DNA from: an uncultured Collinsella sp.
GTDB lineage: Bacteria; Actinomycetota; Coriobacteriia; Coriobacteriales; Coriobacteriaceae
DNA length: 7,827 nt
NCBI GenBank assembly: GCA_905207425.1
Contig: CAJLLB010000096.1
Coordinates: 1-7,827, forward strand
Reading direction: 5' to 3'
The notes under the pieces are model-generated. The model was not told where the DNA came from and made no database searches. It saw only the letters and a program-made list of their open reading frames with translations. Below, piece by piece: positions 230-7,602 of this stretch; positions within the stretch are counted from its first letter, which is position 1, and every line of letters begins with the position of its first letter. Both the position numbers and the translations under genes were made by a program.

Positions 230-290
230 CTTTTACAATGCGTTACGTAAATCGCGTTGCAAAAGTATGAAAATTTCCTACAATTGCAAC
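230..290 (+). promoter_or_regulatory. abiE promoter with three operator half-sites; likely leaderless start
   Basis: A candidate promoter has -35 TTGCAA (257-262), a 16-bp spacer and -10 TACAAT (279-284), which puts transcription start at or very near the ATG at 291. Three related half-sites overlap it. The arm at 230-242 (CTTTTACAATGCG) and the arm at 253-265 (CGCGTTGCAAAAG) are inverted copies matching at 11 of 13 positions. A third half-site, TTGCAAC at 284-290, is an exact inverted match to GTTGCAA at 256-262. The -35 lies inside the second half-site and the -10 abuts the third. An 8-bp palindrome TTACGTAA (243-250) lies between the first two. AbiEi proteins are known to repress their own operon by binding inverted repeats at the promoter, so this is the expected operator. 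Binding itself is inferred. Confidence 0.65.
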
Positions 291-914
291 ATGAAGTACA
301 CTAGCAACATAACGGCGATAAGCGAGCTTTCCGAGAGCGAGGGCGTGTTCACCACAGCTCAGGCGGCCCGCATGGACATCTCTCGAGATGCGCTGGCGTA
401 CTCGTGCCGCGTGGGGCGTCTTGAGCGGATATGCCACGGCGCCTACCGGATGTCAGGCACGCAGCGCCGAGACACCGACGAGCTCAATGCCCTTTGGAAG
501 CTCACCAATCCCTCCCTTTGCGCGTGGGAGAGAAAGCGTCAGTGGGACGGCATCGCCGTAAGTGGCACGACTGCGGCGAACCTGCAGCAAATGGGCGATT
601 TCTATCTGTCTCCCTACAGGATGACCGCGCCTACGCGCATCAATACAAGAAACGAATCCCTTTCTTTTGCAAAGCGCGAGATTGCTGAGCAGGATATCGT
701 CTGGCTCGACGGCTTGCCGGTAACTAAACCCGAGCGCACACTCGTCGATCTATGCCTCGATTGCGAGGACCCCTCATTAATTACCGATGCCTATCACGAC
801 GCGCTTGGGCGCGGACTCAATACGCAGCGGCTGAAAGATCTCGTAAAGGAGAACTCTAAAACCGCCAAACGACGTGAACTAATGATGCCTCTGCTGATGG
901 TGCTGAACGACTAA
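291..914 (+). CDS. abiEi: AbiEi-type type IV antitoxin / transcriptional repressor
   Basis: In AbiE systems this protein represses its own operon and counteracts the AbiEii nucleotidyltransferase without forming a stable complex. The product is about 207 residues. Its N-terminal 50 or so residues are a winged-helix of the AbiEi family: FTTAQAARMDISRDAL for the helix-turn-helix, then VGRLERICHGAYRMSG for the wing, a highly typical signature. A central part with VSGTTAANL and a C-terminal part with GLPVTKPERTLVDLCLD match the rest of the family. An in-frame ATG at 267 would add eight residues, but it lies between the inferred -35 and -10 and has no ribosome-binding site. I chose 291, where transcription should begin, which implies a leaderless message. 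The gene is intact, 15 bp upstream of a toxin gene that is broken. Base composition looks less GC-rich than downstream genes, consistent with acquisition by transfer. Confidence 0.87.
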   Translation: MKYTSNITAISELSESEGVFTTAQAARMDISRDALAYSCRVGRLERICHGAYRMSGTQRRDTDELNALWKLTNPSLCAWERKRQWDGIAVSGTTAANLQQMGDFYLSPYRMTAPTRINTRNESLSFAKREIAEQDIVWLDGLPVTKPERTLVDLCLDCEDPSLITDAYHDALGRGLNTQRLKDLVKENSKTAKRRELMMPLLMVLND

Positions 915-929
915 CGCGAAACGGAGGAC

Positions 930-1331
930 ATGGTGAAGTACAAGACACCTGCCGCATTGGAGATGGCAGTTAGGAATGCAGCAAGGCGGTCGCCGATGGA
1001 TACTAATCGGGCAATCACGGGTTTCTACTTTCATCGTCTTTTGTGCCGCGTCTTTTCGCAAGGCACCGACCGCTTTGTGCTGAAGGGCGGCCAAGGCGTC
1101 TTGGCGCGAACGCTCGATGCGCGTGTTACAAGAGATATTGACTTGGTCGCTCAAGAGGAAAGTCTCGAAGAAGCTATTGCCGATCTGGTGCAGGTGGCTT
1201 CGATTGACCTAAACGATTTCGTTTCATTTGTCTTTGATCGCGCGGAGCAAATTAAAGCGGAGGATGAGTATCGATCTGGTACGAAGGTGTGGTTTACTCC
1301 CGGACAAGGAAGTCAACATCCATTGTTTTGA
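930..1331 (+). pseudogene. abiEii: AbiEii-type nucleotidyltransferase toxin, 3'-truncated
   Basis: AbiEii proteins are nucleotidyltransferase-fold toxins, usually about 250-300 residues. This frame gives only 133. The recognisable part includes the nucleotidyltransferase motif LKGG (residues 51-54) and the metal-binding D-x-D in RDIDL (D69, D71), then typical family sequence through about residue 123 (VWFT). The last ten residues do not look like the family. From about 1297 the DNA instead encodes, on the opposite strand, part of a different nucleotidyltransferase, so the true toxin sequence ends near 1296-1300. The downstream catalytic elements of the family are missing, so activity is unlikely. 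GGAGG at 923-927 is only 2 bases from ATG 930 and 5 bases from GTG 933, so the GTG may be the real start. The gene follows abiEi by 15 bp in the usual antitoxin-toxin order. Confidence 0.82.
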
Positions 1332-2214: not shown

Positions 2215-2853
2215 ATGATCTGGTTTACTAGCGATACCCACTTTGGGCACGAGAACATGCTGCGGTTCAGCGGTAGGCCGTGGTCGACCGTTGCGCAGAT
2301 GAACGATGCCATCGTCGACAACATTAACAGCAAGGTCGTCGTGGACGACGAGCTCTACATTCTGGGCGACTTCAGCTTTAAGATGACAGCCCAAGATGCC
2401 TACGAGCTGCGCAAAAGCATTGCATGCAAACGTGTCCATCTGCTGCCCGGCAACCACGACAAAGACTGGACGCAGCCTGCGGTAGCGGATGCTTTTATCG
2501 TCGAGCCGCCCATTTGCGTGCTCAAAATTGACCGGCAGAAAATCGTGCTGAGCCACTATCCCATGGTCGACTGGCAGGGTATGTCGCACGGCGGCTGGCA
2601 TCTTCACGGACATATCCACAGCTGCGGTGGTGCGTACAACGAGTTCAACCGCAGACAGGGGCTCCTGCGCTATGACGTGGGTGTTGACGCCAACGACTAC
2701 GCGCCGGTGAGCCTGGAGGAACTTAAGACGTGGTTTGCACAGGTAGACGAGCCGGTGTGCTGCGTTAAGTGGCCGTGGTGGGTCAACGCCACGGGCGATG
2801 AGCAGATAGAGCGCGAGCTCGCGGCTTACAAGAGGGAAGTGGTAATCCGATGA
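2215..2853 (+). CDS. Calcineurin-like metallophosphoesterase (COG4186-like)
   Basis: A 212-residue soluble hydrolase of the calcineurin-like phosphoesterase fold, which uses a two-metal centre. All family motifs are visible in order: D-x-H in SDTHFGH (D7, H9), GDF (G51, D52), GNHD (G79-D82), SHYP with H114, and HGHIH (H131-H135). The C-terminal 60 residues, including a tryptophan-rich KWPWW, follow the core. Closest in style to small stand-alone phosphoesterases of COG4186. The physiological substrate is unknown, and nucleotides, phosphodiesters or RNA ends cannot be told apart from sequence. AGGAGG (2205-2210) four bases before ATG 2215 is the strongest ribosome-binding site in the window. 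The gene overlaps the next by 4 bp (ATGA), so translation is probably coupled. Confidence 0.9.
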   Translation: MIWFTSDTHFGHENMLRFSGRPWSTVAQMNDAIVDNINSKVVVDDELYILGDFSFKMTAQDAYELRKSIACKRVHLLPGNHDKDWTQPAVADAFIVEPPICVLKIDRQKIVLSHYPMVDWQGMSHGGWHLHGHIHSCGGAYNEFNRRQGLLRYDVGVDANDYAPVSLEELKTWFAQVDEPVCCVKWPWWVNATGDEQIERELAAYKREVVIR

Positions 2854-3575
2854 CGGTCTATGTGACAGGCGACATCCACGGTGGGCTCGACATGCAAAAG
2901 CTCCGCGACTGGGAGCTTGGGGATAGTCTGACGAGCGACGACTACCTCATCGTCGCCGGCGACTTTGGCTTTCCGTGGGATTTCTCCGCCGAGGAGTGTG
3001 CCGATATCGCTTGGCTGGAGTCGCGCTCCTACACGGTGCTCTTTGTCGACGGCAACCACGAGCGCTTCGATCACTGGGCGGAGCGTCCCCTGGAACTATG
3101 GCACGGCGGGCTGACGCAGCATCTGTCGGACACCTCGCCCATTCGGCGCCTGACGCGTGGCGAGGTTTTTGAGCTCGACGGCTCAACAATTTTTACCATG
3201 GGTGGCGCCACGAGCGTGGACAAGGAATACCGCGTGCCGTATTCGAGCTGGTGGCCGCAGGAGTTGCCGGATGAGCGAAACTTTGAGGAGGCGCGGACAA
3301 AGCTCGATAGCGTGGGCTGGAAGGTCGACTTCGTAATCACTCACACCTGCTCCACGCGTATGCTCTCGCCCACGCTCTATCCGGCGCCCGGCTGGAATTG
3401 CCCCGGCGCTGATCGGCTCACAGCATTTTTCGATGAGCTGGAGGACCGCTTGGACTACAAGCGCTGGTACTACGGCCATTTTCATCGCGATGCCAATCCA
3501 GCCGAGCGCCATACCGTGCTCTACGACTGCATCGTTCGTTTGGGCGACGAACTCCAACCCTGGGACGTTGCATAG
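2850..3575 (+). CDS. Second calcineurin-like metallophosphoesterase
   Basis: A 241-residue predicted metal-dependent phosphoesterase, clearly distinct from its neighbour and not a tandem duplicate. Motifs: GDIHG (D8, H10), GDFG (D38), GNHE (G68-E71), ITHT with H165, and YGHFH (H210, H212), so the two-metal site is complete. Between GNHE and ITHT it has the features typical of this subfamily: LFVDGNHERFDHW, LELWHGG, FTMGGATS and YSSWWPQELP. The start lies in an ATGA overlap with the upstream gene and has only a weak, distant GAGGG (2832-2836), consistent with translational coupling. Convergent with gluQ, with only 52 bp between the stop codons. No substrate can be assigned. Homologues that I recall in gut Firmicutes and Actinobacteria are annotated only as metallophosphoesterases. 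Confidence 0.9.
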   Translation: MTVYVTGDIHGGLDMQKLRDWELGDSLTSDDYLIVAGDFGFPWDFSAEECADIAWLESRSYTVLFVDGNHERFDHWAERPLELWHGGLTQHLSDTSPIRRLTRGEVFELDGSTIFTMGGATSVDKEYRVPYSSWWPQELPDERNFEEARTKLDSVGWKVDFVITHTCSTRMLSPTLYPAPGWNCPGADRLTAFFDELEDRLDYKRWYYGHFHRDANPAERHTVLYDCIVRLGDELQPWDVA

Positions 3576-3627
3576 GGGCGAGTTCGCATGGGCTTCGCGG
3601 CGAAGCGGGACTAGCTCACCAAGAGGC

Positions 3628-3795
3628 CTACTCCCAAGCTGCCTTGCGCTCGAGCAGCTCTTTTGTGGCCTCGGGCATGGGGGAGTCAAGTGTTTCGCAA
3701 AATGCATCGAACCCCTCTGGTGAAAGGCGGGTTGTTGATGCTTTGACGATGTCGCCATCGAGGCGCTCATCAGGGCGGGCTGCCGTCTGTTGCAT
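3628..3795 (-). other. DUF1778 (TacA-like) antitoxin tail fused to GluQ
   Basis: The last 55 residues of the gluQ frame begin at an internal ATG (3795-3793). The start MQQTAARPDERLD resembles the beginning of DUF1778 antitoxins (a short basic lead, then ERLD). The end TTRLSPEGFDAFCETLDSP and TKELLERKAAWE resembles their C-terminal toxin-neutralising tail (F-x-x-x-LD-x-P, then LL-x-RK-x-W-E). The ribbon-helix-helix middle is missing, as if deleted in frame. A good ribosome-binding site (AAGGGG, 5 bases before this internal ATG on the minus strand) suggests that it was once a separate gene and could still be translated alone. The GNAT acetyltransferase toxin that normally follows is not present; only 52 bp separate the stop from the neighbouring gene. 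The family match is from memory of its consensus. Confidence 0.6.
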
Positions 3796-4800
3796 GATTG
3801 CCCCTTCACTCATGACAATGTTCTCCCGGTGTTCACGGATGATATCCCAGCTAAAGTGCTCGACCAGCTGCTCGGCAGAGCGGGGCGTGGCATCCGGCGC
3901 GATGCCTGTTTGTCCGGCGAGCCAGCCGAGCAGCGCCTCGGGCGCGCCAAAGCGGGTGCGGAGTTCGCCCAGATCCAGGTCGCGATCGCGCTTGGAAAGG
4001 CGGCGGCCGTCCGGTGACATGAGCAGCGGAATGTGTGCATAGTGCGGCGTGGGCAGCCCCAGCAGGTGCTGCAGATAGATCTGGCGCGGTGTGGATCCCA
4101 GCAGGTCGCATCCGCGCACGACCTCAGTGACGCCCATGGCAGCGTCGTCGACCACCACGGCCAGCTGGTAGGCAAACACGCCGTCGCTGCGGCGCACCAA
4201 AAAGTCGCCGCATTCGGTGGCGAGCGCCTCGCATTGGGCTCCATACGTGCGGTCCACGAATTCGATCACATCGTTTGCTAGGTCGTCGACGGCGGGTACG
4301 CGCAGGCGCGTGGCCGGAGCGCGCAGAGCGCTGCGGCGGGCAACCTCCTCGGCAGAAAGGTCTCGGCAGGCGCCGCGGTAGATGGGCGTGCCGTCGCTCG
4401 CGTGCGGCGCGCTCGCGGCGTGGAGTTCGGCACGCGTGCAAAAACAGGGATAGGTGAGGCCGGCGTCTTGCAGCTGACGCAGGGCGTCCTCGTACAGATC
4501 CAGGCGATCGTGCTGGTAGTAGGGGCCTTCGTCCCACTCCAGTCCCAGCCAGGCCAGGTCGTCAATCAATTGAGTGGCAAGTTCCGGGCGCTTGCAGCGA
4601 TCGTCCAGGTCCTCGATGCGCAGCACGATGCTGCCGCCTTGGCTGCGGGCCGAAAGCCACGAGCACAGGCAGCTGAACACGTTGCCCAAGTGCATGCGGC
4701 CCGAGGGCGACGGGGCAAAGCGGCCCACGACGGGGGTGGGCGCTGCCGTTGCTGGTGCGTCCGCGGCGTGTGTTGCTATGTTGCGTGCGTTGATATCCAT
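3628..4800 (-). CDS. gluQ: Glutamyl-Q tRNA(Asp) synthetase with C-terminal extension
   Basis: A truncated glutamyl-tRNA synthetase paralogue that activates glutamate and attaches it to queuosine in the anticodon of tRNA(Asp), not to a tRNA 3' end. The 390-residue product has the class I HIGH-type site in APSPSGRMHLGN (29-40), the Glu-binding RIEDLDD (61-67), the zinc site characteristic of GluQ (C119, C121, Y141, C145, from CFC and YRGAC), AYQLAVVVDDAAMGVTEVVRG (210-230) and a KMSKS-type RLSKR (267-271). The tRNA anticodon-binding domain of true GluRS is absent, as expected. GluQ proteins usually have about 300 residues. Here roughly 60 residues follow FSWDIIREHRENIV (317-329), and these resemble a DUF1778 antitoxin tail (see separate entry). 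ATG 4800 is chosen because the family begins near GRFAPSPSG and the further upstream extension (to 4959) reads through promoter and hairpin sequence. Confidence 0.93.
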   Translation of the reverse strand: MDINARNIATHAADAPATAAPTPVVGRFAPSPSGRMHLGNVFSCLCSWLSARSQGGSIVLRIEDLDDRCKRPELATQLIDDLAWLGLEWDEGPYYQHDRLDLYEDALRQLQDAGLTYPCFCTRAELHAASAPHASDGTPIYRGACRDLSAEEVARRSALRAPATRLRVPAVDDLANDVIEFVDRTYGAQCEALATECGDFLVRRSDGVFAYQLAVVVDDAAMGVTEVVRGCDLLGSTPRQIYLQHLLGLPTPHYAHIPLLMSPDGRRLSKRDRDLDLGELRTRFGAPEALLGWLAGQTGIAPDATPRSAEQLVEHFSWDIIREHRENIVMSEGAIMQQTAARPDERLDGDIVKASTTRLSPEGFDAFCETLDSPMPEATKELLERKAAWE

Positions 4801-5315: not shown

Positions 5316-7262
5316 ATGAACACCCTCGCCGCCAAAGTCAGCCGGCAGCGCCGCCTGTTTGCGCGATTCGCTTCCGTCTGCGCGCTCGTTGCGCTTGCGT
5401 TGTTGCTGCTGCCTGCCGCCGCGCACGCCGACGGCTACTCCATGACCCAAACCTACATCAGTGCCACGGTCGAGGCCGATGGATCGCTGACCGTTGTCGA
5501 GGGACGCCAGTTTGATTTCGACGACGACATCAACGGCGTGTTTTGGGAGATCAATACGGGCACCAACCAGCAGGGCGGCACGGCGGACGTTGACGTGCTG
5601 AGTGTCGAGGAAGAGGACACCGCGTTTAACAAAGTCGATAGCGCGAACAAGGGCGACTCTGGCGTCTACACGGTCGAGCAGGCCGGTGACGGCGTAAGGA
5701 TTAAGGTGTTCAGCCCCCACGAGAGCGGCGACAGCGCGATCTATTACGTGAGCTACACCATGACCGGTGCGGTTATGAACTGGGCCGATACCGCCGAGCT
5801 CTACTGGAAGTTCGTGGGCGACGGCTGGTCTGCGGATTCCGACGATGTCGAGATGGAAGTGCGCTTCGCAAATGCCGCTGCCGGGACGGCGGCCGTCAAA
5901 GGCGATAACTTCCGCGCATGGGGCCACGGTCCGCTGGCGGGCGACGTGTCGCTCGATGAGGACGAGCCCATGGTCACCTACACCATTCCGTGCGTGCACG
6001 AGGGTGAGTTTGCCGAGGCACGCATCGCCTTCCCCAGCGACTGGGTGCCGCAGCTTGCCGCCTCGGGCGAAGAGCGCATGTCAACGATCCTGAGCGAAGA
6101 GAAGGAATGGGCCGACGAAGCTAACGCCCGCCGTGAGCACGCGCGTGCGGTTGCCGGCGCGATTGCCGTGATGTGTGTTGTTGTGGCGGTTGCCTATACC
6201 GGTGTAATCGTGATGCTCAAGCTGCGCAGGCCCAAGCCCAAGCCGCTCTTCCAGGACGAGTACTTCCGCGATGTGCCCTCCGCCGATCATCCCGCGGTGC
6301 TTGCAACTCTTATGAGCTGGAACGACGTGCCCGATCAGGCATATATCGCCACGCTGATGAAGCTGACCGACGACCGCGTGATCAAGCTGGAAGAAGCGAC
6401 CGAGACCAAGAAGAAGGGTCTGCTCCGTCGCGAAAAAGAGGAGCAGACGTATCGCATCACAGTGACCGACGAGGCCTGGAAGGCTGCCAAGAAGGACGGC
6501 ATCGACCGCGACGTACTCAAGGTCTTCTTCGCTGGCGTTAAGCCCGATAAGGACGGAGTCCGTTCGCGCACGTTTAGCGAGCTGGAGGAATACGCTAGCG
6601 AGCGCACCACATCTGTTGGCGACAAGCTCGAGGACTATCAGAGCACGGTTAAGGGCAAGCTGGAGGCGCGCGAGCTTATCGCCTCGGACGGCACCGTCGC
6701 CCTGGTTGCCGGCTTGGTTCTCGGCATCATCATTGTCTTTGGCATTTTGGGCTCTCTGTTCTATACCGACTTTGCGGACGCCAACGTCGGTGCCGCTATG
6801 ATCTCGATCCCCGTCACGATTGTGGGCTTTGTCCTGAGCTGCACCTTCCGCCGTTACACGTCGGAGGGCGCCGAGGTGGCGGCTCGCTGCAAGGCGCTCA
6901 AGCATTGGCTCGAGGATTTTACGCGCCTGAAGGAGGCCGTCCCCAGCGATCTGATCTTGTGGAACAAGCTGCTGGTGATGGGCGTTGCCCTGGGCGTTTC
7001 GAAAGAAGTGCTGCGACAGCTGGCCGAGGCCGTGCCTGCGGATCTGCGCAACAGCGACGATTTCTACGACAACTACCCCTGCTACTGGTGGTATTACCAT
7101 CACTACGGCAACGAGTCTCCGCTCGATTCGTTCAACGATGTGTATCACGAGACCATCCGCGAGCTGGCTTCGAGTTCCGATAGCTCGAGCGGCGGCAGCG
7201 GCGGCGGCTTTTCCGGTGGCGGCGGTGGCGGCGTCGGCGGAGGCGGCGGCGGAACGTTCTAG
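5316..7262 (+). CDS. DUF2207 family membrane protein with signal peptide and Gly-rich tail
   Basis: A 648-residue envelope protein of unknown function. A signal peptide covers residues 1-38 (basic start, hydrophobic core VCALVALALLLLP, cleavage likely after AHA38). The extracytoplasmic DUF2207 beta-rich domain follows (about 39-275, with ISATVEADGSLTVVEGRQFDF near its start, typical of the family). Then come a membrane helix (about 278-302), a cytoplasmic region with basic KLRRPKPKPLF and a winged-helix-like segment (about 325-450), and two more helices (about 461-483 and 492-511). A segment with LWNKLLVMGVALGVSKEV (548-565) follows, then an aromatic stretch with CYWWYYHHYG. The last 25 residues are mostly glycine and serine, ending GGGGTF, also a family habit. 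ATG 5316 is chosen because AAAGGA (5303-5308) lies 7 bases upstream and the signal peptide begins there; the open frame extends back to 5247. It appears to be a single-gene transcript with its own terminator. Confidence 0.92.
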   Translation: MNTLAAKVSRQRRLFARFASVCALVALALLLLPAAAHADGYSMTQTYISATVEADGSLTVVEGRQFDFDDDINGVFWEINTGTNQQGGTADVDVLSVEEEDTAFNKVDSANKGDSGVYTVEQAGDGVRIKVFSPHESGDSAIYYVSYTMTGAVMNWADTAELYWKFVGDGWSADSDDVEMEVRFANAAAGTAAVKGDNFRAWGHGPLAGDVSLDEDEPMVTYTIPCVHEGEFAEARIAFPSDWVPQLAASGEERMSTILSEEKEWADEANARREHARAVAGAIAVMCVVVAVAYTGVIVMLKLRRPKPKPLFQDEYFRDVPSADHPAVLATLMSWNDVPDQAYIATLMKLTDDRVIKLEEATETKKKGLLRREKEEQTYRITVTDEAWKAAKKDGIDRDVLKVFFAGVKPDKDGVRSRTFSELEEYASERTTSVGDKLEDYQSTVKGKLEARELIASDGTVALVAGLVLGIIIVFGILGSLFYTDFADANVGAAMISIPVTIVGFVLSCTFRRYTSEGAEVAARCKALKHWLEDFTRLKEAVPSDLILWNKLLVMGVALGVSKEVLRQLAEAVPADLRNSDDFYDNYPCYWWYYHHYGNESPLDSFNDVYHETIRELASSSDSSSGGSGGGFSGGGGGGVGGGGGGTF

Positions 7263-7276
7263 CGAGCGCTTGCTTT

Positions 7277-7324
7277 GGGGTGGATCTTTCTGGGCGGTTG
7301 CCAGGGAAGATCCATCCCATTTTT
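7277..7324 (+). terminator. Rho-independent terminator of the DUF2207 gene
   Basis: GGGGTGGATCTT (7277-7288) pairs with AAGATCCATCCC (7307-7318), 12 bp including one G-U, with a small inner CTGG/CCAG stem (7290-7293 with 7301-7304). It is followed by five T residues (7320-7324). It begins 15 bp after the TAG stop of the DUF2207 gene. Confidence 0.88.
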
Positions 7325-7378
7325 GTGCATCGAAACGGGCCATGCTTTCCGCTGCGGACCTTCGCACAAGGGGCAGTG

Positions 7379-7602
7379 GGCAAAAAATGCCAAATATGAG
7401 TACTGTTGCCTAGATTGTCACATTTGTTTGTACTAAAAAATGGACTCCTAACGATATTATTTCTCGTTAGGAGTCCATTTTATTGTACATTTGGGGAGAT
7501 ACGTTAGTTCATCTGACGCGTCGAGACGTCTAAGAGACCCGAGAAAGCCGAATTGCGCTGCTGCTAAAAAGGTAACAGTACTCATATTTGATGTTTTTTG
7601 AC
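7379..7602. mobile_element. MITE-like element with long imperfect terminal inverted repeats
   Basis: The left arm (7379-7413) and the right arm (7568-7602) are inverted copies matching at about 28 of 35 positions, including a perfect 17-bp core: CAAATATGAGTACTGTT at 7391-7407 and its complement at 7574-7590. About 150 bp lie between them, dominated by a long central hairpin, with no credible coding sequence. The size, terminal inverted repeats and lack of genes fit a miniature inverted-repeat element or large intergenic palindromic repeat. No target-site duplication is evident. I recall similar repeats across Collinsella genomes, unverified here. Confidence 0.65.
7430..7488. terminator. Long central hairpin, bidirectional terminator-like
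   Basis: AAAATGGACTCCTAACGA (7437-7454) pairs perfectly over 18 bp with 7464-7481 around a 9-base loop. The pairing continues imperfectly outward: GTACTAA at 7430-7436 faces TTATTGTAC-type sequence up to 7488. The A-rich left flank and T-rich right flank would make it a terminator in both directions. Since the DUF2207 gene already has a terminator 110 bp earlier, this hairpin is best seen as part of the MITE-like element. Confidence 0.7.

Follow-up and report, generated by a model that had tools for sequence, protein, structure and literature searches.

The stretch of DNA analysed here (the window; 7827 nucleotides from an uncultured Collinsella sp.) encodes on its minus strand a glutamyl-Q tRNA(Asp) synthetase (GluQ) whose reading frame runs past the normal end of the enzyme. 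The locus therefore raises the question of what this extension is, how it came to be attached to GluQ and whether it still does anything. An initial annotation of the window took it for the toxin-binding tail of a TacA-type (DUF1778) antitoxin, acquired by deletion and fusion and perhaps linked to tRNA charging. To our knowledge, the fate of broken toxin–antitoxin modules is poorly known.

Read from ATG 4800 to the TAG at 3628–3630, gluQ specifies 390 residues; the same frame has a TTG (4959) upstream of this ATG. The body of the protein belongs with the GluQRS enzymes over its catalytic domain, scoring 312 bits against the NCBIfam GluQRS equivalog NF004315 (cut-off 250) and 304 bits against TIGR03838 (cut-off 277). 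An AlphaFold model (alignment of 14 sequences) gave residues 20–328 mostly pLDDT values of 70–98, with weaker loops, whereas residues 330–390 of the tail were of low confidence (pLDDT about 26–45), with two helices at 361–371 and 377–389. The enzyme's normal end, ...HRENIV, is passed in frame, as first described, and 61 residues follow from ATG 3813. The window protein thus shares a complete catalytic body with GluQRS and differs from it in these 61 C-terminal residues, which among the GluQ sequences read recur only in one database cluster (P0002; see below).

Table 1. Features of the gluQ site in the window
Feature	Position	Strand	Basis
GluQ (glutamyl-Q tRNA(Asp) synthetase) body, 329 residues	3814..4800	-	NF004315 match and AlphaFold model
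Junction; it holds two ATGs in frame (3813-3811 and 3795-3793), both preceded by a Shine-Dalgarno-like sequence	3784..3813	-	
Eroded remnant of the second ribbon-helix-helix helix (positions 38-49 of the L010 antitoxin)	3748..3783	-	Alignment and conservation counts
TacA-type predicted toxin-binding tail (positions 50-88 of the L010 antitoxin)	3631..3747	-	Profile and near-invariant residues
TAG stop codon of the fusion	3628..3630	-	Frame reading
Position of the GNAT toxin gene in L010/L104; here 52 bp without detectable GNAT similarity	3576..3627	-	
Convergent metallophosphoesterase, marking the other side of the site	2850..3575	+	22 closest relatives

The Pfam TacA1 model (PF08681) gave no match to the whole fusion at E values up to 10 and a sub-threshold match to its last 35 residues (E = 0.16, 12.4 bits, cut-off 21). 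Since the Pfam and NCBIfam models are too weak on an isolated tail, we built a profile from positions 50–88 of 29 intact TacA-type (DUF1778) antitoxins. Searched against 204 frames of the window, it found the fusion with an E value of 2.3e-22; the second-ranking frame gave 0.069 and the best of the reversed frames 3.1. Judged by these sequence comparisons, the similarity to TacA-type antitoxin tails is not due to chance. The proposed family assignment failed to reach threshold with Pfam itself and stood with the profile of the intact relatives' tails and with the retention of all 13 near-invariant residues discussed below; the residues quoted in support of it are present in the tail. Its second element, the absence of a ribbon-helix-helix (RHH) domain, agrees with an RHH profile whose best match in the window (E = 0.34) is at the level of chance. 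The tail aligns without gaps to the intact antitoxin of locus L010 (Collinsella sp. TF06-26; genome G009), with 57% identity, and it is through this protein that it is homologous, position by position, to the C-terminal segment of the TacA/KacA/AtaR-type DUF1778 antitoxins (PF08681); the L010 antitoxin itself matches the solved KacA/DUF1778 chains 5zgn over positions 1–69/73 and 7zg6 over positions 3–87. By sequence the window protein thus has the toxin-binding segment of this family. Unlike the known antitoxins, it has no RHH domain, operator palindrome or adjacent GNAT gene, and it is carried on an enzyme. Two GNAT queries gave nothing below E = 0.19 in the window, and a GNAT remnant considered at 3576–3627 was rejected, with nothing above chance.

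A GluQ match was present in all 43 Collinsella-genus genomes examined, and in none of the 43 did it cover the whole tail; the match that extends furthest, in G029, gets to residue 365 of 392 by crossing a stop. The gluQ loci of 30 of these genomes were read (L087–L116); in all 30 the GluQ frame ends with no such tail, so that an extension common to the GluQ proteins of the clade, which would have spoken against an antitoxin origin, is not what was found. In the 22 closest relatives read (GluQ 90–98% identical) the stop lies 4–5 residues past a common HR(E/D)NI motif, and a convergent phosphoesterase gene follows in every case; at the remaining eight loci no phosphoesterase match lies beside gluQ. 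The two stop codons are 15–17 bp apart in 20 of the 22, an empty site, and 962–963 bp apart in the other two (G009 and G022), where a complete antitoxin–GNAT module fills the site. At L010 this comprises an antitoxin of 88 residues (7113–7379; PF08681, 2e-10) overlapped by a GNAT gene running from ATG 7376 to 7849 (Pfam PF13508 and PF00583), and the same module occupies the site in G022 (L104/L082). The window represents a third state of the site, in which the GluQ–tail fusion is followed, after 52 bp between the stops and with no adjacent GNAT toxin gene, by the phosphoesterase.

A search of the genus with the tail matched five of the 43 genomes: two have the module beside gluQ, G025 and G040 have a related module at other sites, and G039 has a different fusion. 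The related GNAT clade occurs in four of the 43, each time beside an intact antitoxin, and PF08681 matched eight, made up of four intact modules and four partial, RHH-only matches (G027, G030, G035 and G041).

Since the interval between these two genes holds a complete module in two relatives, the tail is most economically viewed as the remainder of one, and the deletion and fusion originally suggested provide its simplest explanation. That the fusion is real and its origin well supported we hold with very little doubt. In the history envisaged, deletions would have removed the module's promoter, its presumed operator, the DNA-binding half of the antitoxin and the toxin gene, and what remained of the module would have become joined to the end of gluQ. 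No promoter with an operator palindrome was found for the tail; the palindrome of L010 and L104, the presumed operator, corresponds to a gap in the window alignment, which suggests that the module promoter has gone with it. The junction and its two ATGs may derive from the leader and start of the antitoxin itself, the alignment of the Shine-Dalgarno/ATG region with the intact leader in L010/L104 being suggestive over a very short stretch. With about 63% identity and a dS of about 0.9 between them, the window allele does not derive from exactly the L010 allele, and its direct parent is not among the modules seen.

The fusion in G039 (L085, 1495–2130, minus strand; G039:C1, about 1339895–1340530) joins an HD_4-domain protein (PF13328, 1.5e-7) to an RHH-less TacA-type tail. 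The HD protein runs in frame into the tail near residue 165, and its matches in G023, G027, G042, G043 and G013 end at or before residue 170. The overlapping start of the GNAT gene is kept, and the GNAT itself is shortened by an in-frame loss that spares only some 14 residues at its start and 20 at its end (34 in all); the intact form of this type of module is found in G025 and G040. As in the window, carrier and tail are joined in frame, the antitoxin is broken at almost the same point and the GNAT is disabled; the carrier and the tail subtype differ, and constraint is weaker. The G039 fusion is independent of that on gluQ, which shows that such captures recur without need of a tRNA enzyme. 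The special link to tRNA charging raised in the initial annotation is accordingly not borne out: the module happened to lie downstream of gluQ, and the second carrier is unrelated. With a dN/dS of 0.22–0.30, compared with 0.03 between two intact copies, and one near-invariant cysteine lost, the G039 tail looks like a relic in decay under relaxed constraint; it is this faster divergence and the lost residue that make it read so.

Whether the tail on GluQ is a relic of the same kind or a working part depends on what selection has preserved in it. Work on AtaR–AtaT describes a disordered region of the antitoxin that binds and neutralises the GNAT toxin (PMC10135005), and GNAT toxins are described as acetylating aminoacyl-tRNA (PMC9177977). 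The reading we prefer, with modest confidence, is that the window encodes GluQ carrying an RHH-less TacA tail, a likely module remnant that selection has probably retained as an antidote to related GNAT toxins. The tail would hang from GluQ as a flexible arm, and would perhaps also be made alone from ATG 3795 or ATG 3813; by prediction it would bind a GNAT toxin in the manner of an intact antitoxin's tail and so prevent the acetylation of aminoacyl-tRNA. The cell would thereby gain protection (anti-addiction) with no toxin of its own at the site and no autorepression.

The evidence that bears most directly on this comes from conservation in 118 intact relatives, namely the L010 antitoxin and 117 of the 120 database matches listed, three having been dropped for gaps; P0004 and P0017 were kept although their ends depart from the family. 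Seven positions of the second RHH helix (33–49) and 13 of the tail (50–88) are at least 90% invariant in this set. The window has lost three of the seven and none of the 13. P0003, a stand-alone protein of 61 residues that starts where the window tail does and aligns to it without a gap (77% identical), has lost five of the seven and, again, none of the 13. In a leave-one-out count the intact proteins lose 7 of 826 such residues in the helix and 40 of 1534 in the tail. Over positions 38–49, where homology is surest, the window loses one of four and P0003 two of four. Compared with each other, the two truncated sequences disagree at 10 of 24 positions in the helix and linker and at 2 of 32 in the tail, a skew matched by none of 6903 pairs of intact proteins, these pairs being non-independent; in an earlier, smaller test (28 proteins hand-chosen from the 120 homologues listed, plus L010) none of 406 pairs was as skewed. 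The dN/dS between the window and L010, 0.42 at positions 38–54 and 0.16 at positions 55–88, agrees in direction with the residue counts. This uneven decay favours continuing selection for toxin binding; it is an argument rather than a proof, because the pairs are not independent and the truncated sequences are only two. Since every near-invariant residue is kept, we would expect the tail to bind toxins of its own clade, and on this sequence pattern continuing antidote function is somewhat more probable than its loss. Broad protection is less likely, because TacA antitoxins can be strictly specific: those of Salmonella are reported to be cognate-specific, yet KacA3 alleviates KacT2 (PMC9431474). 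Against an antidote count the restriction of its GNAT clade to four of the 43 genus genomes and the relaxed constraint on the G039 tail.

An inert tail could also have resulted from the same deletion and fusion, one retained for being short, in frame and without harm, whose close match to the antitoxins reflects a recent event. The loss of the toxin and the relaxed state of the parallel G039 fusion fit such a passive relic, as does the recovery of just one cluster of GluQ fusions among 28 candidates scored by a word-based search. That cluster, P0002 (471 amino acids, 34 members), has a tail 98% identical to that of the window (59 of 60 residues). As a test of selection this comparison was dropped, the adjoining C-terminal third of GluQ being almost identical too; it is uninformative because the near-identity may reflect recent exchange. 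A relic does not readily account for an RHH remnant that has eroded while two truncated proteins keep every near-invariant tail residue, and we consider this explanation possible but doubtful.

The internal ATGs allow a narrower form of the antidote, in which a free mini-antitoxin of 55–61 residues would be made from ATG 3795 or ATG 3813 and read-through from GluQ would be incidental. Predicted pairing with the anti-Shine-Dalgarno sequence is −7.5 kcal/mol for ATG 3795 and −7.4 kcal/mol for ATG 3813, which places both in about the best 6% of the 233 ATGs of the window; the good ribosome-binding site initially ascribed to ATG 3795 is thus a Shine-Dalgarno-like stretch of that rank. P0003, standing alone from the same start, fits this form, although it comes from a contig of 2293 bases. 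This is a sub-case of the antidote reading and its probability overlaps with that of the latter; taken by itself we think it rather unlikely.

A role of the tail in controlling its own carrier, for example by marking GluQ for proteolysis and so lowering or regulating the enzyme, would suit the flexibility predicted by AlphaFold and the protease sensitivity described for the disordered region of free antitoxins (PMC10135005). It leaves unexplained the conservation of near-invariant residues, which goes beyond mere disorder, and is very unlikely. An ordinary lineage-specific GluQ extension that happens to resemble an antitoxin, which a sub-threshold Pfam match might have suggested, is refuted by the profile (E = 2.3e-22), by the DNA alignment to the intact module at the site and by the absence of the extension from the GluQ of 30 of 30 relatives.

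Returning to the antidote reading, the nearest known counterparts are the orphan antitoxins, for which a role in anti-addiction has been put forward (reviewed in PMC7354431). As in these, the antitoxin part is kept and conserved, the toxin is lost and no toxin partner lies at the locus; in contrast to them, the window keeps the neutralising tail only, as an extension of a housekeeping enzyme. Orphan antitoxins are already known; the reduction to a tail on a housekeeping enzyme is new, and a limited literature search found no GluQ–antitoxin fusion.

Searching 396 genomes of the class with the tail gave 48 places in 45 genomes, G039 not being among these matches. An in-frame TacA RHH precedes the tail at 28 of them, another N-terminus at 19, and at one (G254) a stop separates RHH and tail. 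The unusual N-termini were missed by the TacA RHH profile, and the four of the 19 that were scanned all matched Pfam RelB. Loci that combine a RelB-type N-terminus and a TacA-type tail beside a GNAT are L132–L134, L157, L160, L163, L166–L171, L173–L176, L178, L179 and L181. Different DNA-binding domains have apparently exchanged this tail, whose occurrence behind more than one of them makes it portable. No enzyme was seen ahead of the tail at any of the 48 places, four of the 19 unusual N-termini having been scanned with Pfam. A scripted search placed a GNAT match beside 45 of the 48 tails, that of G199 (one of the 19) being only a fragment. The three others were inspected: G331 does have a GNAT, G183 retains only some 14 residues of one, and no GNAT was seen near the tail of G254. 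At the G183 locus (L128, 1387–1706) the TacA-type antitoxin is intact and the GNAT behind it breaks off after these residues, which makes this another orphaned antitoxin.

Outside the class, cyanophage frames combine an unrelated N-terminal part with an RHH-less TacA-like tail: L086 (4770–5114), L138 (2483–2845; S-CREM1), L140 (1462–1833; S-SRM01) and L139 (1372–1662; B23). The two scanned against PF08681 were sub-threshold (E = 0.009 and 0.02), and the S-CREM1 record labels its frame `antitoxin peptide', with the note `Tac antitoxin peptide'. By their sequence, such tails may serve the phages as antidotes against GNAT toxins of the host; a limited literature search found nothing joining antitoxin, cyanophage and DUF1778. 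Among viral contigs, the tail query found one relative, on a cyanophage-like contig, and the query A1 one match, outside any start-to-stop frame of at least 40 amino acids on the matching strand. A search for near-identical phage DNA found none, and among plasmids five Bifidobacterium records were 35–46% identical to the L010 antitoxin. A general route from module to pure immunity, in which toxin, operator and DNA-binding half are deleted and the tail is spliced onto a constantly produced resident enzyme, is put forward tentatively, as somewhat unlikely. On this view Collinsella would have taken the route at least twice, on GluQ and on the HD-domain protein of G039, and the cyanophage tails, likewise RHH-less but attached to a phage domain, would presumably be directed at GNAT toxins of the host.

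The site offers three allele states for comparison: empty, complete and tail-only on GluQ. If the tail still neutralises, antidote function would be separable from autoregulation and from the toxin and could be tethered to a housekeeping enzyme, and the anti-addiction idea for orphan antitoxins would become directly testable. A further lesson for annotators would be that elements conferring toxin resistance can go unnoticed when they form C-terminal extensions that score below the thresholds of Pfam.

Elsewhere in the window (267–1331, plus strand), an AbiEi antitoxin frame of 215 amino acids precedes an AbiEii toxin frame of only 133, which matches about the first 92–123 positions of models of 238–310. 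This pair is apparently a second case of an antitoxin kept and a toxin cut. Locus L008 has an AbiEi that is 93% identical and only 46 residues of the window's AbiEii.
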